From Georgenia yuyongxinii (GTDB lineage: Bacteria; Actinomycetota; Actinomycetes; Actinomycetales; Actinomycetaceae): 64,000 nt of DNA. The position numbers and the translations under genes were made by a program. Under the pieces are notes generated by a model that did not search any database, was not told where the DNA came from, and saw only the letters and a list, made by a program, of their open reading frames with translations. The stretch covers positions 124,001-188,000 of the forward strand of contig NZ_CP040915.1 in the NCBI RefSeq assembly GCF_006352065.1, read 5' to 3'. Shown here in pieces: positions 1-10,017 of the stretch. Every line of letters starts with the position of its first letter. Positions within the stretch are counted from its first letter, which is position 1.

Positions 1-451
1 GGAGCATGACCTTCAGGTCCGTGATGCCGTCGAGCCGGAGCTCGCGGATCGCAAGGTCGGCCCCCTCGTACAGGAACTGGTAGTTCTCGTAGTGGCCGTT
101 GACGAAGGCGACCTTGCGGACTCCGTGGCGGGCGAGCTCGAGCACCAGGGTCTTGGCGATGGACACCACCGTCGCCGCGTCGAGGCTGGTGGTGCCGGTG
201 AGGTGGTTGCCGCCGCCCGAGCGTTGCTGGGACTTGTACCCGAAGACGATCGGCGGCGCGACGAGTGCGCCGGTCGCCCCGGCGACCGCGCCGGCCATCT
301 CGCGCGAGAGGAGCACGTCCGTGTTCAGCGGCATGTGCGGACCGTGCTGCTCGATGGACCCCACCGGGATGAGCACCAGGACGCCGCTCGCGACGCGCTC
401 ACGGTAGGTGAAGGCGTCGAGCTCCTCCATGTAGACCGTGTCGACACTCAC
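1..451 (-). CDS. Creatininase (creatinine amidohydrolase), N-terminal 150 residues; runs off the window
   Basis: Predicted to interconvert creatinine and creatine by hydrolysis of the lactam ring, using two metal ions. Every metal ligand known from Pseudomonas putida creatininase is present and even falls at the same residue numbers: Glu34 and His36 in IEQHGPHM, Asp45 in NTD, His120 and Glu122 in NGHYEN. The segment GYKSQQRSGGGNH (residues 71-83) is also characteristic. The NGHYEN form, rather than NGHGGN, separates it from the mycofactocin-type MftE branch. The family is about 260 residues, so about 110 lie outside. The GTG start overlaps the stop of the upstream transporter gene by 4 nt (GTGA), implying translational coupling. 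Third gene of the amidinotransferase operon. The ATG at 430 is an alternative start. Substrate assignment is by homology from memory. Confidence 0.85.
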   Translation of the reverse strand, partial: MSVDTVYMEELDAFTYRERVASGVLVLIPVGSIEQHGPHMPLNTDVLLSREMAGAVAGATGALVAPPIVFGYKSQQRSGGGNHLTGTTSLDAATVVSIAKTLVLELARHGVRKVAFVNGHYENYQFLYEGADLAIRELRLDGITDLKVML

Positions 452-1584
452 TTCGTCTCAGCTCCTACGTTGCTTTGGACGACGGCGGGTGCGCCGTTGT
501 CTCCGAGCGCCACGGCGGGTGCGCCGTTGTCTCCGAGCGCGACCCCGGGTGCGCCGTTGTCTTGGAGCGCCACGGCGGGTGCGCCGTTGTCTCCGAGCGC
601 GACCCCGGGTGCGCCGCCGTCGGGCTTCCCGCCGGCCACGCCGCCCTGGGTGAAGGCCTCGGTCAGTTCCGGGGTCTTCTTGGTGGAGAAGAGGATCTGT
701 GCGACGCCGCCCGCGATGATGAGCGCGCCACCGAGCATCTGCATGACGGACATGGACTCGCTGAACAATGCGACACCGAGGACCGTCGCCATGATGGTCT
801 CCTGGTAGGAGATCGTCGCGAGCTCGCCGGCCAGCAGGATCTTCGACGCCACGGTCAGGAAGTAGAACGCCCCGGCTCCGGTGATGAATGCGGCCACCAC
901 GAGGATGATCCATCCGCGCCCGGTCATCGCTCCCAGGTCGGGCACCCTGACGATGTTGATGATGCCCAGGGTGATGACGGCGAACAGGAAGTTGGAGTAC
1001 GCGCGCACGTCGGACTCGACGTCACTGCGATATCGGCTCACGAACAGGAAGAGGCCGTACGCGACGCCCGACGCGAGGGCGACCATGTTGCCCGCGAAGT
1101 ACTTGGGGTCGAGGTCGAGCGACACGACGAATCCGTCGCCCGCCGTGTAGTTGATGATGCCGATGATGAGGAGGCAGCCGGCGAACACGGACGAGAGCGA
1201 GATAGCCGTCGCCTTGGTGAACGGCTCCTTGAGGAAGATGCTCGCGAGAATGGTCGAGTAGATGGGGCCGGTGTAGATGAGGAAGGCCGCGTTGGCGAGC
1301 GTCGTCATCTGTGTCGACATCACATAGAGGCCGGACAGCAGGCCCAGGAAGACTCCGGAGGCCACGATCGCAGGAGTCAGCCTGAACCCGCGGAACTTCA
1401 CGTACTTGCGACCGACCGTGAAGATCAGGGTCATCAGGACGAGCCCGGCGAGGTTGCGGGCGAACGAGATGAAGAGCCCGGGAGCCTCGATGTACCGGGC
1501 GAACGCGCCGATGCCACCCATGAGGCTCGAGGACAGGAACATGATGGCGAAGCCGATGAGTTTGGTGCGGCTGGACGACTGCAT
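448..1584 (-). CDS. EamA/DMT-family transporter with a repetitive C-terminal tail
   Basis: A 378-residue drug/metabolite transporter protein with two EamA halves and about ten hydrophobic helices, expected in the cytoplasmic membrane as an exporter of small metabolites. The start at 1584 is chosen because AAAGGAG lies 8 nt upstream; an in-frame extension to 1671 would put 29 proline/arginine-rich residues before the first helix. The last 50 residues are a hydrophilic tandem repeat (unit GDNGAPAVAL, five copies) not expected in this family. The gene sits 116 nt downstream of the amidinotransferase gene and overlaps the creatininase gene by 4 nt. The operon context suggests it moves a guanidino compound such as guanidinoacetate, creatine or creatinine; that is inference. 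Confidence 0.85.
   Translation of the reverse strand: MQSSSRTKLIGFAIMFLSSSLMGGIGAFARYIEAPGLFISFARNLAGLVLMTLIFTVGRKYVKFRGFRLTPAIVASGVFLGLLSGLYVMSTQMTTLANAAFLIYTGPIYSTILASIFLKEPFTKATAISLSSVFAGCLLIIGIINYTAGDGFVVSLDLDPKYFAGNMVALASGVAYGLFLFVSRYRSDVESDVRAYSNFLFAVITLGIINIVRVPDLGAMTGRGWIILVVAAFITGAGAFYFLTVASKILLAGELATISYQETIMATVLGVALFSESMSVMQMLGGALIIAGGVAQILFSTKKTPELTEAFTQGGVAGGKPDGGAPGVALGDNGAPAVALQDNGAPGVALGDNGAPAVALGDNGAPAVVQSNVGAETK
481..630 (-). repeat. Five tandem 30-bp repeats in the transporter 3' end
   Basis: Five 30-bp units lie end to end at 481-510, 511-540, 541-570, 571-600 and 601-630, the last one degenerate. Two variants alternate in part, one beginning CACGGCGGGT and the other GACCCCGGGT. 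All units stay in frame and encode a 10-residue Gly/Asp/Asn/Ala/Pro-rich repeat. There are no spacers, so this is not a CRISPR array. Confidence 0.9.
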
Positions 1585-1700
1585 GGGATTTCGCTCCTTT
1601 GCGGGTCCTCCCGTGGAGACGGGAAGGGGATTTCGTCTGGGATCGCGCGGGTGCCCGTGAGGGGGGCGCATGGCTCGTGCACCCCCTCACGGGTTCGGAC

Positions 1701-2828
1701 TCAGACGCGGGTGGGGTCGTCGACCTGGTTGGGGAAGTAGTCCTCGCAGGTGCCTTCGCGGTAGACGTCGGCGGTGGCGCAGTGCAGGCCGCCACCGAAG
1801 GCGTAGGCGTCGCGGAAGGGCACCGGGATGACGTTCATCCCGAGCTTGTCCATCTGCTCGGCCTGGTAGACCTCGGACTCCTCGACGATGACCGTCTTGT
1901 GGTCCAGGACCAGGCAGTTCATCGACAGCCACACCGAGGAGTAGCACAGCGGCGGCGGGCCGTCGTGGGCGGGCTTGGCCGCCTCGACGATCTGCCAGTC
2001 GTTGGCCTCGAAGATCGCCCGCTGCTCCACAGGCAGGGGCCGGTGGGGGTTGTTTATGATCAGGCCCGGCCGCAGCGGCACGAACGTCGCGTCGATGTGG
2101 ATCGGGTAGGGGTCACCGGGGAAGTTCACGGAGTGCACCCGCAGGTCGGGGTAGTAGCGCTTGAACCACTCCATGGCCTTGAGGTTGGTGGTCAGCCCGT
2201 GCTGGATGAACAGGTCCTTGCCCATGCGCATCACGTCGGCCGCGTCCCACATGGGCTCGACCTCGGTGGTCACGAAGTCCCTGTTCGCGGTGCGCACCAG
2301 GCGCTCCTCCAGGGAGATCTTCTCGTCGTAGTAGTTGTGCTTGTACGACTTGTCCGTCAGGCGCGGCCGGGGCGCCTGGGTCCACTTGAACTCCGGGTCA
2401 GCCTCGAAGTACTCGTTCATCAGCGGCCAGTAGGCCAGGTACTCGAAGTAGCGGCACCGGAACGAGTTCGCCGACGCCATGATCTCGTTGCCGATGGTGA
2501 GCAGGATGTCGCGCGGCGGCATCTGCGTCATGCCGGACTCGGTGCGGAAGTCAGGGGTCTTGATCTCCTGGTTCCACTGCATCGGGGTCGGCCGGTCGAC
2601 CTTCACCCCGAGCCCCTCGAGCACCTTGACGTAGTTGTCCAGCTGCGCGTTGGCCTTCTCCACGGTCTCCGTGGGACGTGGCCCCCACATGCCGCGCATC
2701 TCGGAGTCCACGGGCACCTTCTCCGAGGTGGCCGGCTCCTCCGGCGGGATCACGCTCATGTCGGCGCGCCCGACGATGGCGTGCTTGAGCGGGTCGAAGT
2801 CGTTCCACGAGTTGACGATCTTGGTCAT
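1701..2828 (-). CDS. Arginine:glycine-type amidinotransferase
   Basis: A 375-residue amidinotransferase, very close in motif order to human AGAT, which moves the amidino group of arginine onto an amine. Visible signatures are PRPRLTD (residues 153-159), the WDAAD motif with Asp195, the His motif PIHIDATF with His244, and the nucleophile Cys350 in GGGLHCATAD. Two acceptor-site positions differ from AGAT: the equivalents of human Asn300 and Met302 are Tyr241 and Ile243 (the cyanobacterial enzyme CyrA also differs there). The acceptor may therefore not be glycine. The start has a good Shine-Dalgarno (AAGGAG). It is first in the operon with the EamA exporter and the creatininase. No neighbouring antibiotic-type biosynthetic genes are visible. 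Confidence 0.9.
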   Translation of the reverse strand: MTKIVNSWNDFDPLKHAIVGRADMSVIPPEEPATSEKVPVDSEMRGMWGPRPTETVEKANAQLDNYVKVLEGLGVKVDRPTPMQWNQEIKTPDFRTESGMTQMPPRDILLTIGNEIMASANSFRCRYFEYLAYWPLMNEYFEADPEFKWTQAPRPRLTDKSYKHNYYDEKISLEERLVRTANRDFVTTEVEPMWDAADVMRMGKDLFIQHGLTTNLKAMEWFKRYYPDLRVHSVNFPGDPYPIHIDATFVPLRPGLIINNPHRPLPVEQRAIFEANDWQIVEAAKPAHDGPPPLCYSSVWLSMNCLVLDHKTVIVEESEVYQAEQMDKLGMNVIPVPFRDAYAFGGGLHCATADVYREGTCEDYFPNQVDDPTRV

Positions 2829-2974
2829 TGAAACTCACTCCTTCTGGGGCGCGTCGTCGCGCTCCCGGTTCACCCCGGCTGTTCCGGGGCTCTGCTTCCT
2901 GGGCCGCCGTGGTGCGGCGGTCGTTCATGGGTGTCGTTGTGTCGTGCTCGTCGTGCGGTCCGTCCTCGAGGCCA

Positions 2975-3259
2975 TCACCTCGGTCCGGCACGGTCGGTGG
3001 CCGACGGCAGGTCCCTCATGCGCGCCGCACCCGGGTCTCCGGCTCCTACGGCTCCGCCGGACGAACGACCGACGAGCAGGTGGCTGAGCGCGGACCTCTT
3101 CGGGCTGGTGGCGCCAAGCACGTCGACGGCGCCCCGGCGAGACATGAGCTCGTCCCATTGCCTGCTCAGTCGGCGCCGGACCGCGCGTCCCATCCGGCCG
3201 ACCTCGTCGTCGACGTGACAGACAGTCCGGTCCAACGCTGCGATTCCCTGGTACGCCAT
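2975..3259 (-). CDS. Possible hypothetical protein, 94 residues
   Basis: A leftward reading frame that starts with ATG at 3259, has GAGGGA a few bases upstream and ends 146 nt before the amidinotransferase start. The first 40 residues are charged and helix-like (MAYQGIAALDRTVCHVDDE); the second half is Gly/Ser/Ala-rich. Third-position GC is somewhat lower than in neighbouring genes, so coding status is doubtful. No family recognised. If real, it would be the leading gene of the amidinotransferase operon. Confidence 0.3.
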   Translation of the reverse strand: MAYQGIAALDRTVCHVDDEVGRMGRAVRRRLSRQWDELMSRRGAVDVLGATSPKRSALSHLLVGRSSGGAVGAGDPGAARMRDLPSATDRAGPR

Positions 3260-3666
3260 CGTCCCTCGTCGCTTCGTCTCAAGTGCTGAGAACTTGGCAC
3301 AACTGAACACCGAGATGGACGGTCGTTCAGGGGACTTAGTTCCTACGACGCCAGGTCTGGCGGGCGGTCAAGTGGGGAGAAACTGGACGGGCGCTCAGGG
3401 TCTAGGGCGGTGCACACCTCCGCCGTTCAACCAGCACCTGCGCCCTGAGCAACGGCCGCCGGGTCGTCTCCGCCCGTCACGGGCTGCTCTTACCTGCGCG
3501 GTGGCTCGACGACGCGCTGCTGGTGGGGAGCCTGACCGAAGCGTGCGCGCCGAGCTGGGCGATGCTCGTGACAGGTGCGGAGGAGTAGCCTGGCGAGCGC
3601 CCGGCCCGGACCGCCACGCAGGCACGAGCGGGACGGACGGCCGGGTACCCGACCCCGGGAGCCTCG
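3260..3666. other. Gene-poor interval between divergent transcription units
   Basis: No convincing intact gene. It must hold the promoters for the leftward amidinotransferase operon and the rightward membrane-protein gene; TAGCCT at 3586-3591 is a plausible rightward -10. On the plus strand a frame from about 3437 to 3588 reads like the C-terminal 50 residues of a protein (it ends ...LVTGAEE) but has no start codon, so it may be a remnant. Confidence 0.4.
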
Positions 3667-4611
3667 ATGCGCCAGGCGTCCACAGCCCCAGCCCGGCTGC
3701 TCCCCGTCAGCCGCGTACTCCTCGCGCTCTTCGTCGCCCTCACGCTGCTGGGTTTCGGCTCACTGTTCGTCCTCGCCGGCCAGACCGACCGCAGCTTCGC
3801 CTGGACCATTGAACCCGCCGCTACTGCCGCCTTCCTCGGCGCGGGCTACGCGTCCGGGACGGTGCTGATGGTGCTCACGCTGCGCCAGAACACCTGGGGC
3901 GCCGCGCGCGTCCCGATCGTCACGGTGCTGATCTTCACCGTGCTCACCCTGCTCGCGACCCTGATCCACCTCGACCGGTTCCACTTCGGCGCCGCCGGGG
4001 CCCTGCCGCGGGGAGCGGCGTGGTTCTGGCTTGTGGTGTACGTGGTCATCCCGCTGGGCATGGTGGTGGCGCTGGCCCGCCAGGAGCACACCGCCCGCGC
4101 AGAGCGGGCGGCTCCGGTGGAGCGGCCGGCCCCGGTGGACGCGCCGGCACCGGCGGAGGGTCGGCGGCGGGCCGGCACGTCCCGGTCGCGGCCCCTGCCC
4201 GGCTGGCTCCGCGCGGCACTGCTCGCCGAGGGGGTGGTGATGTTCGCCGTCGGCGTCTCGCTCTACGTCTTGCCGACGACGGCGCAGACCCTGTGGCCGT
4301 GGACGCTCACCCCGCTGACCGCCCGTGCCGTCGCTGCGTGGCTGATCGCCTACGGGGTGGCGACGGGGCTCGTCGTCGGCGAGAACGACCTCCTGCGGCT
4401 CCGCGCCCCGGCGGTCGCCTACGCCGTCTTCGGCGCGGGGCAGCTCGTGGTCGCGCTGCGCTTCGCCGGCGAGATCGCATGGGGCGGTCCGGCCGCCGTC
4501 GGCTACCTGCTCGTCGCCGCCGCCGTCGCCGCCACGGGGATCGCCGCCCACCTCCTTGGTCGCCGCGCGGTGGCCACCACCGCCCCTGCGGAGGTCCGCC
4601 GTGCGCGCTGA
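3667..4611 (+). CDS. Polytopic membrane protein with an internal duplication
   Basis: A 314-residue protein with about four hydrophobic helices in each half, separated by a Pro/Ala/Arg-rich cytoplasmic linker (about residues 140-180). The halves share a pattern: W-T-I-E-P-A-A-T-A in the first and W-T-L-T-P-L-T-A-R in the second, each followed by A-x4-Y-x2-G, so the protein probably arose by duplication. No known family recognised. Its stop lies 8 nt inside the next gene, a flavoprotein, so the two are translationally coupled and probably act together; an electron-transfer or sensing role at the membrane is a guess. The ATG start lies 75 nt after a TAGCCT -10 candidate. Confidence 0.75.
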
Positions 4612-6298
4612 ACCGCCCGTCCGGCCCGCCATCCTCCTGATCAGCACCGACCCTGCGGTGCGCCGCACGGTCGGCGACGAGCTCAACCGCCGCTACTCCG
4701 CCGACTACACCGTGCTCGTCCACGACACTCCCGCCGCGGCGGCCACCGATCTCACGGCGCTCGCCGCCGAGGGTGCCCCGGTGGCGCTGGTGATCGGCGC
4801 CGTCGGCGGCCCCGACGCCGACGGCCTGGCCGACCTCGAGGCATTGGGCCCGCTGGACCACACCGCGCTGCGGGTAGCCCTGGTCCGGTGGGGGGACTGG
4901 GCGGTCGCCCGGCCGGTGTTCGACGCCATCGGGCTCGGCACCGTCGACCGGCGCCTGACCCGCCCCGAGCTGGCCGGGGACGAGGAGTTCCACCGCAACA
5001 TCGCCGAGTTCCTCGAGGAGGCGGCCGGCCGCCGCGGCCGCGGGTTCGAGGCGGTGCGGATGATCGGCGAGCGGTGGGCGCCACGCACCCAGCACCTGCG
5101 CGACCAGTTCAACCGCAACCACGTCCCCACCGGCTTCTACGACGCCCACTCCGACGAGGGCGCCGCCCTGCTTGACGGCCTCGGCCTGATCGGCCCCACC
5201 CTGCCCGTCGTCGTGCTGCGCTTCCAGGCCGACCAGCCCGTGCTGCAGAACCCCACGGACATCCAGATAGCCGACGCCTTCGGTATCTTCGCGCCGGTGC
5301 GCGCGGAGGAGGAGTTCGACGTCGCCATCCTCGGCGCCGGGCCCGCCGGCCTGGGCGCCGCGGTGTACGCGGCGTCGGAGGGGCTGCGGGTGATCGTCAT
5401 CGAGCACGAGGCGGTCGGCGGTCAGGCCGGCACCTCCTCGCTGATCCGCAACTACCTCGGGTTCCCGGCGGGCATCTCCGGCTCACGCCTCGCGGTGGCC
5501 GCCTACGAGCAGGCGTGGTCCTTCGGTGCCCGGTTCCACTTCCTGCGGTCCGCGCGCGACGTGCGTCGCGATGACGGCTGGTGCGTGGTCTCGCTGACCG
5601 ACGGCTCGCAGGTGCGGAGCCGGGCAGTGGTGGTGGCCACCGGTGCGTCCTACCGGCGCCTGGAGGTCCCGGCGCTGGACGCCCTGGCGGGCAAGGGCGT
5701 GTTCTACGGCGCGACCACCACCGAGGCCACGGCGATGGCGGGCAAGCAGGTGTTCGTGGCCGGTGGTGGCAACTCCGCCGGGCAGGCGGCCGTCCACCTC
5801 GCCAGGTACGCCGATCACGTCACCGTGCTGGTGCGTCGGCCCACCCTCGTCGAGACGATGTCGGAGTACCTCGTCCGGGAGATCGACTCCGCGCCGAACA
5901 TCTCCGTGCGTTACCGCACCGACATCGTGGGCGGGGCGGGGGAGGAATTCCTCCAGGCGATCGTGCTGCGCGACCTCGACACCGGCGCCGAGGAGACCGT
6001 TCCCGGGGTGCTCTTCGTCCTCATCGGCGCGGAGCCGCGCTCACAGTGCCTGCGCGAGTCCGTCGCCCGCGACTCCCAGGGGTACGTGCTGACCGGGCCG
6101 GATGTCCTGGCCGACGACGCCGGCACCTGGCACGAGGACCGTCCCCCGCTCATGCTCGAGACCTCGCTGCCGGGGGTCTTCGCCGTCGGCGACGTGCGGC
6201 ACGGGTCGGTCAAGCGGGTCGCCTCAGCGGTGGGGGAGGGGGCGCTCGCCGTCAGCGTCCTCCACCAGTACCTGGCCAACCACCGGACGATGGGCTGA
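4601..6298 (+). CDS. Receiver-like domain fused to thioredoxin-reductase-like FAD oxidoreductase
   Basis: A 565-residue fusion. Residues 1 to about 235 look like a response-regulator receiver plus linker (starting [15 protein letters not shown]). The rest is a two-dinucleotide-domain flavoprotein of the thioredoxin reductase type: GAGPAG for FAD near residue 250, GGGNSAG for NAD(P)H near 387, and [11 protein letters not shown] near the end. In thioredoxin reductase the disulfide site reads YCATC; here the aligned segment is YGATT (DNA about 5705-5720), so both redox cysteines are missing and disulfide reduction by the usual route is unlikely. GTG 4601 is chosen because GGAGGT lies 5 nt upstream and the frame then overlaps the upstream gene by 11 nt. 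Similar proteins are annotated as fused response regulator/thioredoxin reductase. Confidence 0.85.
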
Positions 6299-6317
6299 CG
6301 GCGGCCCGCGCTTCGGG

Positions 6318-6764
6318 TCAGCTCGCGCCCTGCAGCTCGGCGACGAGGCCGTCGATCTTCGTCGAGAGGTCGTCCAGCGCACCTTCGGTGGCCGCGCCGG
6401 CCGACGCTCCGGCCTCGTCCAGCTTGGCCTTGGCGTCCTCGAGGGCCTGCTCCGCGTCGGCGCGCGCCTCGGCGCCGTCGGCCTGCTCCAGCGCCTGCCG
6501 GGCATCGTCGATGGCCTTCGACGACGCGTCGATGGCGTCCTGGACCTTCGCGCGCGCGTCGTCCGAGCTGAGACCCTCCAGCTGGCCCTTCAGATCCTCC
6601 ACCGCGCCCCGGGCGTCGTCGATGGACCCGCGCGCGCCCTCGACGGCGGAGGAGACGGATTCGCTCACCTCGCCGATGTCCGGGGTGCCGTCCTCGGCGC
6701 AGGCGCCCATTGCGAGGACGGCCGTCACGGCCACGGCGATCAGGGTGCGGCGGGCGGTGGTCAT
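6318..6764 (-). CDS. Small coiled-coil lipoprotein
   Basis: A 148-residue exported protein. The N-terminus has Arg-rich and hydrophobic segments ending in LAMGAC, a slightly atypical lipobox with Cys at about residue 22, so it is probably lipid-anchored outside the membrane. The mature part is almost entirely Ala/Asp/Glu/Lys-rich helix with heptad-like spacing, and predicted to be coiled coil. GAGGAG lies 6 nt before the ATG. It converges with the flavoprotein gene, with only 19 nt between the stops. Function unknown; a cell-envelope structural role is a guess. Confidence 0.75.
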   Translation of the reverse strand: MTTARRTLIAVAVTAVLAMGACAEDGTPDIGEVSESVSSAVEGARGSIDDARGAVEDLKGQLEGLSSDDARAKVQDAIDASSKAIDDARQALEQADGAEARADAEQALEDAKAKLDEAGASAGAATEGALDDLSTKIDGLVAELQGAS

Positions 6765-6834
6765 GAGCTGCTCCTCTGTCGGTCCTTCCACGATACGTGA
6801 GGGCCGGGTGGGTGGCGCGTGGCACCCTCGTCGC

Positions 6835-7518
6835 ATGAGCCCGACGCCTGGTGGCACGCCGGAGCGGCCCGCGTTGTTCTTCAGCGGGCCCGAGGAGTTC
6901 CGCGTGTGGCTCCGGGAGAACCACGACACGGCCACCGAGCTGTGGATGGGCCTGCGGAAGAAGCACGTCCCGGACCGCGGGCTGACGTGGGCCGACGCGG
7001 TGGTCGAGGCCCTGTGCTTCGGCTGGATCGACTCGGTCGCCCAGCGCATCGACGCCGACGCCGTCCGCCAGCGCTGGACGCCCCGCAAGCCCGGCAGCAC
7101 GTGGAGCCGCATCAACCTCGAGACGGTGGCTCGCCTGATCGAGGAGGGCCGGATGACGCCTGCCGGTCTCGCTGCCTATGAACGGCGCAAGGCCGACCGG
7201 CAGGCCATCTACGCCTATGAGCAGGCCGAGCTGGAAGCCCTGCCCGCGGAGGCGGAGGAACAGGTGCGCGCCAACCCGGCCGCGGCGGCGTTCCTCGACG
7301 CCGCGACCGCCTCCTACCGCAAGGTCTGCATCCACTGGGTGCTGTCGGCCAAGCAGGAGGCCACCAGGGAGAAGCGCCTGCGTCAGCTCATCGACGACAG
7401 CGCCGCCGGTCGCCTCGTCCCGAGCCAGCGGTACGGGCAGACACCGTCGTGGGTGGCCCGCGCAGCTGCTGCGGCGCAGGCGGCGGAGGACCGCTCCCCG
7501 CCGTCACCACGGTCATGA
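6835..7518 (+). CDS. YdeI/OmpD-associated family protein
   Basis: A 227-residue soluble protein of the YdeI family (sometimes called bacteriocin-protection family), with the usual signatures ELWMGLRKKH, the Trp-rich stretch CFGWIDSV and the block RWTPRKPGSTWS, followed by the C-terminal helical domain with RRLR-like basic residues. The molecular function of the family is poorly defined. The ATG has no Shine-Dalgarno; CACCCT stands 6 nt upstream, so the transcript may be leaderless. Its stop codon lies inside a copy of the 35-nt dispersed repeat. It is divergent from the lipoprotein gene. Confidence 0.85.
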   Translation: MSPTPGGTPERPALFFSGPEEFRVWLRENHDTATELWMGLRKKHVPDRGLTWADAVVEALCFGWIDSVAQRIDADAVRQRWTPRKPGSTWSRINLETVARLIEEGRMTPAGLAAYERRKADRQAIYAYEQAELEALPAEAEEQVRANPAAAAFLDAATASYRKVCIHWVLSAKQEATREKRLRQLIDDSAAGRLVPSQRYGQTPSWVARAAAAAQAAEDRSPPSPRS

Positions 7519-7546
7519 CATGTCACGGAGAAGTTGACATCTCGCC
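7512..7546 (-). repeat. 35-nt dispersed repeat, copy A
   Basis: Minus-strand copy of the element also found at 32620-32654 and 63965-63999. The core reads GAGATGTCAACTTCTCCG on the minus strand, followed by a second ATGTCA. It covers the stop codon of the YdeI gene and the adjoining spacer. It differs from copy C at about six positions, mostly at the ends. Confidence 0.8.
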
Positions 7547-7608
7547 GGGATGGCGGCCGGAGGAGGGGGCCGGCTCCGGACCCATGGATCGGCCGCGCGG
7601 TCGGCGGA

Positions 7609-7614
7609 TAGAGT
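7609..7614 (+). promoter_or_regulatory. Candidate -10 for the PspA cluster
   Basis: TAGAGT, matching the actinobacterial TAnnnT form, lies 38 nt before the GTG at 7652, leaving room for a short leader with GGGGAG as ribosome binding site. No strong -35 is visible. Confidence 0.4.
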
Positions 7615-7651
7615 GGACCACGGGCATGCCAACTGTCGGGGAGTGATCGCC

Positions 7652-8245
7652 GTGACCGCACTGCCGGCCTCCGCCAGCGCCACCAGCGCCGTCGCGGACG
7701 CCCTCACCACCATCGCCGTGATCGGCGGCGTCACGTTCCTCGTCCTGCTGACCGCCGCCGGGCTGACGGCATGGGTGGTCGTCCGGAAGATCCGCCGCTC
7801 GCGACTCCTCCGCCGGGGTGCGCTGCGGGTCCGCACGGTCGTCGGCGACCAGGCCGGGCGTGAGCTGGCACGCCAGCGGGTCGCGTTGCAGGACGCCCAG
7901 GACGCGACGGAGCGGGCGCTCGCCGCCGCCTACGCCCAGCACCGCCCGGTCGGTGAGCTGCCCGCCGTGGCCGCCCGGCTGGCCGACGCCGGGCAGGAGC
8001 TCGACGACCAGCTGCGGCTCGCCGAGCGAGAGCCCGACCGAGCCCTCCGAAGCGCGCTCGCCCGCGAGCTCGACGGCCGCGTGCGCGAGCACGGGCGCCT
8101 CTCGGCCGAGCTGCGTGCCTCCGTGCTGAGCACCGGTGGGGCCGTGGGCGAGGCCAGGTTGCTCGACGCCGGGTCACGGCTTGCCGTGGAGGTCGGCGCG
8201 CTGACGGCATGGCAGGAGTCCTACGGCGCCCGGCGCCTCGGCTGA
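7652..8245 (+). CDS. PspA-associated single-pass membrane protein (paralog 1)
   Basis: A 197-residue protein with one transmembrane helix near the N-terminus (around residues 20-45), a basic stop-transfer RKIRRSRLLRR, and a long charged cytoplasmic helix. It is paralogous to the protein at 11513-12079: both carry PVGxLP, then LDDxLRLAExEPD and a C-terminal YGxRR. GTG 7652 has GGGGAG 7 nt upstream; GTG 7643 is an alternative. It lies 18 nt upstream of pspA and is very probably co-transcribed. A likely job is membrane docking or control of the PspA coat, inferred from position. Confidence 0.7.
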   Translation: MTALPASASATSAVADALTTIAVIGGVTFLVLLTAAGLTAWVVVRKIRRSRLLRRGALRVRTVVGDQAGRELARQRVALQDAQDATERALAAAYAQHRPVGELPAVAARLADAGQELDDQLRLAEREPDRALRSALARELDGRVREHGRLSAELRASVLSTGGAVGEARLLDAGSRLAVEVGALTAWQESYGARRLG

Positions 8246-8263
8246 CCGGCGACGAGGAGCGCC

Positions 8264-8953
8264 ATGGCGATCGGACGTCGTCTCACCCGTATCGTGCGGG
8301 CACGACGCAACGCGCCCGGGCCCGTCCAGGACCCGGGTGCCGTCGTGGCGGCCGCCCAGCGGGAGCAGGAGGACCGGCTCGACCACGCGCGCCGCGCGGT
8401 GGCCGATCTCGCCGTCCAGCGCCGCCGCACCGAGCTGCTCGCGGTGCGCGCCTCCGACGAGATCGCCCGGCTGAGCCGTCAGGCCGAGGACGCCGTCGCC
8501 CGCGGGGACGACACCGGCGCGAGGGACCTGCTCCGCCGCGCGATCGTGGCCCGAGAGCGGCGCGACGCGCTGCACGTCCGGCGTGGGGAGCTCGACGCCC
8601 AGGTCCAGCGGCTCGAGCGAAGCCTGGGGCAGGTCGAGGAGCGGGTGGAGGAGTCCCGCCTGCGCTACCTGTCGGTGCGCGCCGAGCAGGACGCCGCGCG
8701 CGCCTCGCTGGACGTGCGGCGGGCGCTGGGCGAGTCCGGCCGGGACGCGGCCGAGGCGGCCACCGCGGCCCGTGAGGCCGAACGTGCCGCGCGCGAGCTG
8801 CAGGCGCGGGCCGCCGCATACGACGAGCTGGCCTGGACCGACCCGGACGGCCCGGCGGTCCGCGAAGCCTTCGAACAGCTCGAGCACGGCCGCGAGGCCG
8901 AGGACGAGCTCGCCCGGCTCAAGCAGCGCAGGGGCATTGACCCGGGACGGTGA
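8264..8953 (+). CDS. pspA: PspA/IM30 family envelope-stress protein
   Basis: A 229-residue, almost wholly helical protein with the layout of PspA/IM30 (Vipp1) proteins: a short basic N-terminal helix (MAIGRRLTRIVRARR), then long Arg/Glu/Ala-rich coiled-coil segments, ending in a short C-terminal helix after the DELAWTDPDGPAV stretch. Such proteins bind the inner leaflet and form oligomeric coats that protect membrane integrity under stress. It starts with ATG 18 nt after the single-pass membrane protein. PspF and the proteobacterial PspBC are absent, as usual in actinobacteria, so regulation would be different here. Confidence 0.8.
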   Translation: MAIGRRLTRIVRARRNAPGPVQDPGAVVAAAQREQEDRLDHARRAVADLAVQRRRTELLAVRASDEIARLSRQAEDAVARGDDTGARDLLRRAIVARERRDALHVRRGELDAQVQRLERSLGQVEERVEESRLRYLSVRAEQDAARASLDVRRALGESGRDAAEAATAAREAERAARELQARAAAYDELAWTDPDGPAVREAFEQLEHGREAEDELARLKQRRGIDPGR

Positions 8954-9075
8954 GCGGCCGGGGATGGTGCGCGGCGAGCGCGCCCGCCTGCGGGGCGGTG
9001 GGCCGGTCCTGATCTCGGGTGGTACGCGGAGGTCCATATCCTCGTCAGTAACCGCTGACGAAACCTGAGGACCCC

Positions 9076-10017
9076 ATGAAGCTCCTGCTGCCCGACTCCT
9101 TGCCGCTCGACCCCGTCCTGCCCGACGCCGTCACGCCCGTCCGCTACGACGCCGCGGCGCCGGTGCCCCAGGAGCACCTGGACGCCGACGCCCTCGTGGT
9201 CTGGGGCAGCGCGACAGCCGACTTGGCGGAGGTCGCCGGCCGCATGCCGGACCTGCGCTGGGTGCAGGCCCTCGCCGCCGGCCCCGACTCCGTGCTCGCC
9301 GCCGGGTATCCCGAAGGCGTCGTCGTCACCTCCGGAGTAGGCCTGCACGACGCCACGGTCACCGAGCACGCCCTGGCGCTGACGCTCGCGCTCGTGCGCC
9401 GCCTCCCCCAGAGCGCCGTCGCCCAGGCCGAGCACCGCTGGGCGCGCGAGCTCGGGGGCATGCAGCCGTTGCGCCCCGACGGCCTGGTGACCACCCTGCT
9501 GGGTGCGCGGGTGCTCGTCTGGGGCTTCGGCAACATCGGGCAGACCCTCGCGCCGGTGCTGCGCGCGCTCGGTGCGCACGTGACCGGCGTCGCCCGCAGC
9601 GCCGGGGAGCGGGCGGGGTTCCCCGTGGTCGCCGAGGACGACCTGGACGCCGAGCTGGCCCGCACGGACGTGCTCGTCATGATCCTGCCCGGCACCGACG
9701 CCACGGCCGCGGCGCTGAACGCCGCCCGGCTGGCGGCGCTGCCGCGTCACGCCTACGTGGTCAACGTCGGCCGCGGGTCCACGGTGGACGAGGACGCCCT
9801 CGCCGCCGCGCTCACGTCCGGCTCGATCGCCGGCGCGGCGCTGGACGTCACCGCCGTCGAGCCGCTCCCCGCCGAGTCCCCGCTGTGGGACCTGCCGAAC
9901 CTTCTGCTGACTCCGCACGCCGCCGGCGGCCGCCCGGTGGGCGCCGATCAGCTCATCGCCCACAACGTCGCCGCACTGCTGGCCGGCGCGCCGCTGCGCA
10001 ACGAGGTGGCCCGATGA
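9076..10017 (+). CDS. D-2-hydroxyacid dehydrogenase (phosphoglycerate dehydrogenase-like)
   Basis: A 313-residue NAD(P)-dependent dehydrogenase that should reduce a 2-keto acid or oxidise a D-2-hydroxy acid. Visible are the nucleotide-binding GFGNIGQ (about residues 150-156), the catalytic Arg in NVGRGSTVD (about 233), Glu in TAVEPLP (about 262) and His in TPHAAGG (about 281). The N-terminus is short and there is no regulatory ACT domain, so it is not a complete SerA. It follows pspA by 122 nt, with TATCCT as a possible own -10 and a small hairpin in the leader. The next gene, a glycosyltransferase, begins 33 nt downstream. Confidence 0.85.
   Translation: MKLLLPDSLPLDPVLPDAVTPVRYDAAAPVPQEHLDADALVVWGSATADLAEVAGRMPDLRWVQALAAGPDSVLAAGYPEGVVVTSGVGLHDATVTEHALALTLALVRRLPQSAVAQAEHRWARELGGMQPLRPDGLVTTLLGARVLVWGFGNIGQTLAPVLRALGAHVTGVARSAGERAGFPVVAEDDLDAELARTDVLVMILPGTDATAAALNAARLAALPRHAYVVNVGRGSTVDEDALAAALTSGSIAGAALDVTAVEPLPAESPLWDLPNLLLTPHAAGGRPVGADQLIAHNVAALLAGAPLRNEVAR

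Follow-up and report, generated by a model that had tools for sequence, protein, structure and literature searches.

The window analysed here is a stretch of 64,000 nucleotides from Georgenia yuyongxinii, whose genome is a single contig of 4.17 Mb (NZ_CP040915.1, positions 124,001 to 188,000; G000:C1:124001-188000 in our coordinates). At its beginning lie three genes on the minus strand, coding for a relative of vertebrate arginine:glycine amidinotransferase (AGAT), an EamA-family transporter and a creatininase. They form one operon, as the original prediction had stated on reading the sequence. That prediction saw in them a possible bacterial creatine-type pathway, which would either make and export a guanidino acid or run the amidino transfer backwards to recover arginine. 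In window positions, the features are as follows.

1701..2828, minus strand: AGAT-type amidinotransferase, 375 amino acids, called from its phmmer match to human AGAT and aligned catalytic residues; a proposed creatine/guanidinoacetate:ornithine amidinotransferase

2100..2114, minus strand: substrate flap DPYPI of the amidinotransferase, residues 239-243 (human AGAT counterpart DPNPM, residues 298-302)

448..1584, minus strand: EamA (DMT) transporter, Pfam PF00892, start chosen by AAAGGAG; a proposed sarcosine or glycine exporter

1..451, minus strand: creatininase (TIGR04448), N-terminal 150 amino acids; the full gene of 258 amino acids, G000:C1:123675-124451 (L008:11675-12451), extends past the window

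2829..3063, minus strand: upstream region common to both copies in the genome, within a single 1363-base DNA alignment that includes the amidinotransferase gene (95% identity)

The creatininase gene starts at a GTG at position 451 with a 4-base overlap with the EamA stop codon, and Shine-Dalgarno-like sequences lie ahead of all three starts. The longest EamA open reading frame spans 448-1671, and the ATG at 1584, with its preceding AAAGGAG, is the better start; the product scores 76.1 bits against a PF00892 gathering score of 28.2 (E 4e-21). Beyond the window (L008), the operon continues with the rest of the creatininase, an NCS1 permease, for which no PDB relative was found at E 0.001, a second EamA gene and an MFS symporter. 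The gene set is not a chance assembly, as it is present twice in this genome and recurs in many others.

No Pfam or NCBIfam model matches the amidinotransferase at E 0.001. Its best PDB match is human AGAT (phmmer, E 1e-81), with 151 of 351 aligned residues identical (43%), which bears out the close kinship that had been claimed for it; other structure-solved relatives are SxtG, HsvA and the StrB-type enzymes, whose roles are biosynthetic. Residues C407, H303 and D254 of human AGAT, which we take to be the catalytic cysteine, histidine and aspartate, correspond here to C350, H244 and D195. These three are invariant in all 86 aligned amidinotransferases, a set that includes some identical sequences, and so are D107, D246, R263, S297 and S298 (D170, D305, R322, S354 and S355 in human AGAT). 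Judged by its sequence, the enzyme is an AGAT-type amidinotransferase and not an arginine deiminase-like enzyme, which the earlier note had named as a case against its reading. We do not call it an arginine:glycine amidinotransferase, because the flap residues N300 and M302 of human AGAT are replaced by Y241 and I243, all 86 sequences having the flap DPYPI (D239, P240, Y241, P242, I243). Among further relatives in the phylum, DPYPI is found in five of five at 80-84% identity and in none of five at 34-43%. The flap, which bears on substrate binding, reads DPNPM in human AGAT, DMHPM in AmtA and DIFPS in CyrA (PMC4887976). Few members of the phylum carry the amidinotransferase: of 396 evenly drawn genomes, 14 match at E 1e-40, and nine of these, including this one, do so at 80% identity or more. 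Among plasmids, 43 records match, all below 60% identity, the best being from Photobacterium (59%) and Streptomyces (49%).

The creatininase scores 337.6 bits against an equivalog cut-off of 235 for TIGR04448 (its counterpart in the second copy, 335 bits) and is 56% identical to the creatininase of P. putida (E 6e-87). The presumed metal ligands E34, H36, D45, H120 and E122 carry the same numbers as in that enzyme, as had been noticed before, and all 12 P. putida residues that we take to form the metal site and active site are matched (E34, H36, D45, S78, H120, Y121, E122, W154, W174, D175, E177, H178). The gene is predicted to encode a creatininase (EC 3.5.2.10) rather than a homologue acting on unrelated amides, the other case against the earlier reading.

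The second copy, at about 671-680 kb of the same contig (L009), has the order arcA-arcB-arcC-amidinotransferase-EamA-creatininase-NCS1; an argB paralogue and a TetR-like gene come next. Its arcA product lies above NF002381 (522.6 against 414) and below TIGR01078 (479 against 489.1), and arcB and arcC exceed the cut-offs of TIGR00658 and TIGR00746, so that all three genes of the arginine deiminase (ADI) pathway stand together here. The two amidinotransferase proteins are 94% identical. At the DNA level, the amidinotransferase gene with 235 upstream bases is 95% identical between the copies and the EamA-creatininase-NCS1 stretch 79%, a difference which suggests that the amidinotransferase gene was converted or recently re-duplicated within the genome; in the second copy the end of the arcC frame falls within the upstream part of the 95% stretch. 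The argB gene (acetylglutamate kinase; L009:6157-7335, G000:C1:670246-670965) has counterparts behind the cluster in several relatives (cluster c26). Since another argB above cut-off is already present at C1:1497490, the extra gene could top up ornithine.

Gene order was compared at 79 loci, obtained from the best 80 of 339 amidinotransferase relatives in named genomes and thus leaning to the closest; 34 of them are of Eggerthellaceae type as assigned from record titles. The carriers include Georgenia, Actinomyces, Schaalia, Mobiluncus, Actinobaculum, Cutibacterium, Austwickia, Gordonibacter, Adlercreutzia and Slackia, and the closest amidinotransferases among the named records are those of two Georgenia genomes (95-96%). 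Several carriers were sampled from mouth, gut or urine, according to record titles and PMC6314084. Among the 65 loci with more than 3.5 kb of upstream DNA, the amidinotransferase is directly preceded by one or more arc genes in 37 and by two or more in 34; outside the Eggerthellaceae, one or more are present in 33 of 39. Downstream, counted at the 70 loci with more than 4.5 kb of DNA on that side, an EamA-family gene is present in 58, an MFS symporter in 61 and a creatininase in 13, with neither of the last two in five. The frequent companions of the amidinotransferase are arcABC, EamA, MFS and TetR. Conservation of the order outside this genome, on which the original prediction had staked its case, is indeed found, in Actinomycetaceae and some Eggerthellaceae and sometimes with creatininase.

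Two modules can be told apart, amidinotransferase-EamA-creatininase, often with BCCT or NCS1, and amidinotransferase-EamA-MFS-TetR. In L055 both stand in tandem behind one arcABC, and L069 is similar if less complete; since the paired amidinotransferases are 98% and 100% identical, respectively, a single enzyme appears to serve both modules. Creatininase is also found at two Eggerthellaceae loci (L086 and L088). No GAMT was noticed among the annotated shared genes of the operon strand, although neither a GAMT model nor a genome-wide search was used; annotation covered the shared neighbour clusters of that strand, those of the opposite strand (e.g., c13, c16-c18, c20, c24, c25 and c30) being set aside.

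Some further features of these neighbourhoods may be recorded here. At several Eggerthellaceae loci, an amino-acid-type ABC importer (binding protein, permease and ATPase) precedes the amidinotransferase in place of arc genes (L100:6141-8435; L081:8856-9677). At ten Eggerthellaceae-type loci, a protein of about 189 amino acids (cluster c14; e.g., L095:12585-13154 and L089:3589-4158) is encoded between EamA and MFS or creatininase, with no Pfam match for two members and no NCBIfam match for one. In the gammaproteobacterium Photobacterium sp. DA100 (L161:4764-10143), a 59% relative of the amidinotransferase has the flap DNHPI; an EamA gene (45-46%) lies about 3 kb upstream, an adjoining open reading frame resembles a sodium:solute symporter by eye, and arc genes were unmatched within the 19 kb stretch around it.

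The partners of the amidinotransferase were also counted in 99 related genomes, with gene sets for the Fisher tests compiled by hand from genome searches. Before counting, we dropped one amidinotransferase match (G056, 28% identity, E 9e-6), weak arcA matches in G009 and G033, creatininase and soxB matches below cut-off, and ArcD matches under 400 bits. Calls of arcA rest on E ≤1e-65, because only three of the 99 genomes exceed the TIGR01078 cut-off. Several searches leave out the weakest matches, and for soxB, ArcD, MFS and BCCT the scoring in large genomes was limited to some of the first-look candidates (e.g., 16 of 51). Amidinotransferase is present in 21 genomes, creatininase above cut-off in 10, a creatinase orthologue in seven and soxB above cut-off in nine. 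An arcA match accompanies all 21 amidinotransferase genomes against 42 of the 78 others (p 2e-5), and creatininase is present in 8 of the 21 and in 2 of the 78 (p 4e-5), both p values being optimistic as the genomes are related. Creatinase occurs in 1 of 21 against 6 of 78 (p 1), so that avoidance is not shown. The distance between arcA and the amidinotransferase is at most 5 kb in 17 of the 21 genomes; in G028 the amidinotransferase is 1.2 kb from a contig end.

Creatininase itself is divided between two settings. Eight of the 12 loci above cut-off, two of them in this genome, lie within about 3 kb of an amidinotransferase, and three (G002, G003 and G004) within about 2.5 kb of a creatinase; at the remaining one (G052) the contig ends just beyond the EamA start. 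Both systems occur in G002, each at a place of its own. Every one of the seven creatinase genomes has soxB above cut-off, and among the 21 amidinotransferase genomes only G002 does. The earlier note saw no creatinase in the window and advised looking beyond it for creatinase and sarcosine oxidase. Neither was found in the whole genome: the best creatinase match, with a query that itself matches creatinase 1chm at E 4e-168, is 25-26% identical as against 78-100% in the seven carriers, and for heterotetrameric sarcosine oxidase the best soxB match has E 3.5e-12 and 46 bits against a cut-off of 529. In other species of the same genus (L130-L132), creatininase sits with creatinase, with SHMT and sarcosine oxidase genes nearby in L131 and soxB nearby in L132.

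The transporters connect the two settings. With the creatinase-side MFS protein of G003 as query, four of the best 20 other matches lie next to creatinase (71-75% identity) and the remaining 16 belong to amidinotransferase genomes (51-61%), after which the score drops from 473.7 to 367.4 bits. Fifteen of those 16 are on the same contig as the amidinotransferase and within 8 kb of it; the other (G022) is on another contig. With the BCCT protein as query, the picture is similar: matches are found in the creatinase cluster of G002 and beside creatininase in G012 and G052, which have no creatinase orthologue, before a drop from 538 to 297 bits. Because the creatinase-side importers are closest to the amidinotransferase-side ones, we read the two as probably carrying the same compound, be it creatinine, creatine or something closely related. 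A close MFS gene or a creatininase above cut-off is present in each of the 21 amidinotransferase genomes. As for the arginine/ornithine antiporter, no ArcD orthologue was found in this genome (best E 5.6e-12, 45 bits against a cut-off of 591; other antiporter families were not searched), and only one of the 99 genomes has ArcD above cut-off. By coordinates, no strong ArcD stands beside an amidinotransferase-linked arcA in these relatives; in G040 and G057, a strong ArcD adjoins an arcA of the unlinked kind.

We consider it likely that the operon serves to break down creatinine, creatine and probably guanidinoacetate in a catabolic cycle in which the amidinotransferase works in reverse. The sequences themselves show the genes with their order and conservation, the protein families, the co-occurrence of the genes and the relatedness of the importers; the direction of the reaction, its substrate and the cargo of the transporters are what we infer. 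An NCS1, BCCT or MFS (ProP-like) symporter would bring in creatinine or a guanidino acid, and creatininase would open creatinine to creatine. The active cysteine of the amidinotransferase would then take the amidino group of creatine (or guanidinoacetate) and pass it to ornithine, so that arginine and sarcosine (or glycine) are formed; this amounts to creatine synthesis run backwards, opposite to human AGAT. ArcA, ArcB and ArcC would convert arginine to CO2, ammonia and one ATP and return the ornithine, and EamA would export the sarcosine or glycine. The net reaction of such a cycle is creatine + ADP + phosphate -> sarcosine + CO2 + 2 NH3 + ATP. The transfer to ornithine would become a cycle because arcABC pulls arginine away, and as ornithine would act only as a carrier, an arginine/ornithine antiporter would be unneeded, which fits the missing ArcD. 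Transfer of the AGAT type is reversible (PMC4887976; PMC3684758). The reverse direction is favoured because the second copy and most loci outside the Eggerthellaceae stand behind arc genes, creatininase elsewhere accompanies the degradative creatinase, and the importers resemble the ones encoded in creatinase clusters. We also count in favour of the cycle the arcA matches in all 21 amidinotransferase genomes, the argB paralogue of the second copy and the in vivo ratios in Actinobaculum massiliense given below. Of the two courses that had been proposed, recovery of arginine is therefore the one that the genomes appear to support, and the making and export of a guanidino acid is disfavoured; of the creatine-type pathway, the type of chemistry and the conserved order find support. 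No paper on this pathway was found by title or abstract among open-licence PubMed Central papers.

Within the cycle, creatine is somewhat the better candidate for the main substrate, with guanidinoacetate not far behind, and sarcosine would be the favoured product in the window operon because creatininase is present. The role of creatinase is most likely taken over by the amidinotransferase. The full form of this idea, that a creatine:ornithine amidinotransferase acts in place of creatinase and links the breakdown of creatinine to ATP through a catalytic ornithine-arginine cycle in Georgenia, Actinomycetaceae, Cutibacterium and Eggerthellaceae, is put forward tentatively, as a nearly balanced case.

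Several points weigh against the cycle or its creatine form. We know of no AGAT-type transfer from creatine. The window copy has no arcABC adjacent to it, arc genes lie upstream at only 4 of 26 Eggerthellaceae-type loci (a count of adjacency only), and in G034, G035 and G057 arcA is found elsewhere, not within 5 kb of the amidinotransferase. As 20 of the 21 amidinotransferase genomes have no soxB above cut-off, sarcosine would be waste. The close MFS gene is missing in two of the seven creatinase genomes (G002 and G004), and a strong ArcD is present elsewhere in 9 of the 21 amidinotransferase genomes. SHMT upstream of arcA at five Actinomycetaceae loci, joined by FolD at four of them, hints at glycine and hence at guanidinoacetate. 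In AmtA, replacement of Met by Ser at the flap position held here by Ile abolished transfer (PMC4887976).

An unlikely alternative is that the reaction runs forward, from arginine and glycine to ornithine and guanidinoacetate, which EamA would export while arcABC burns the remaining arginine. EamA proteins are mostly exporters, and arcABC does handle arginine. Guanidinoacetate is, moreover, made by human AGAT, CyrA and AoaA (PMC4887976; PMC3684758). However, this leaves the creatininase unexplained, as well as the closeness of the MFS and BCCT proteins to creatinase-side importers; arcABC would compete for arginine, and the lack of an ArcD orthologue in this genome, or of a strong ArcD beside the linked arcA in relatives, also speaks against it. 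It is rather improbable that the same cycle handles another guanidino substrate, such as guanidinopropionate or taurocyamine, with the creatininase acting on the cyclic form of a related compound. In its favour, the flap differs from that of every characterised enzyme in the comparison, and substrate ranges vary in the family (PMC4887976), but the creatininase passes its model and keeps the P. putida residues checked, and the importers are closest to creatinase-side ones. Biosynthesis of a guanidino natural product, for which the roles of the structure-solved relatives and the polyketide link proposed for Actinobaculum massiliense (PMC6314084) would speak, is very improbable, given companions such as arcABC, EamA, MFS and TetR, a flap unlike that of more distant relatives, the absence of polyketide or nonribosomal peptide synthetase genes from the annotated shared neighbour clusters (part of all clusters), and the low ratio of the polyketide synthase described next.

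Creatinine is the standard marker of kidney function. Its concentration in urine is 3.3-27 mM (PMC9606732). The A. massiliense locus (L076) has the order arcA-arcB-arcC-amidinotransferase-EamA-MFS-TetR. In a study of urethral catheter biofilms, ArcA, ArcB, ArcC and the amidinotransferase of this species (tags 01647-01650) each had in vivo/in vitro ratios above 8, the amidinotransferase being among the more abundant proteins of that table, while a putative polyketide synthase remained below 2 (PMC6314084, whose authors guessed at a polyketide link). If the cycle is real, it would recast this proteome, in which the proteins were attributed to polyketide synthesis. It would also mean that bacteria have a further, new way to use a common waste product of the body, in which the energy of the amidino group is kept and no urea is released. 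A highly conserved enzyme named by no Pfam or NCBIfam model would thereby gain a role, and an AGAT relative would prove to be a catabolic enzyme. Creatine and guanidinoacetate reach the body sites where several carriers were sampled (mouth, gut and urine, from record titles and PMC6314084).

Around the operon, an Rfam scan of window positions 1-10000 gave two matches, both far below gathering score, and hence no support for RNA regulation. No promoter-like site was found in a scan of positions 1-3800, and terminator-like sites there are not in excess (1 against 1.2 in shuffles). The C-terminal tail of the window EamA protein (about 475-611, minus strand) is a tandem repeat of about ten residues, GDNGAPAVAL-like; by eye the repeat is missing from the second copy, where the tail is a different Ala/Pro-rich stretch.

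Compared with known systems, the enzyme resembles AmtA of the phaseolotoxin pathway, a reversible amidinotransferase near AGAT that was shown to move the amidino group to ornithine from homoarginine and canavanine; however, AmtA has a different flap, refuses glycine and guanidinoacetate, and is biosynthetic in role (PMC4887976). With human AGAT (EC 2.1.4.1) it shares the family and the catalytic and guanidinium-binding residues, whereas the flap differs, the gene stands in an operon with arginine deiminase and creatininase, and the proposed direction is opposite. The ADI pathway, arcABC(D), is represented by arcA, arcB and arcC in order in the second copy and in relatives, but without a strong ArcD at the linked loci, and the arginine would arise within the cell, with a guanidino acid as its source. 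The classical creatininase-creatinase-sarcosine oxidase pathway has a creatininase of the same family, and its MFS and BCCT importers are related to those of the present system (50-61% identity). In contrast to that pathway, the genome has no creatinase orthologue or soxB above cut-off, an amidinotransferase would stand in the place of creatinase, and the amidino group would yield ATP instead of urea.

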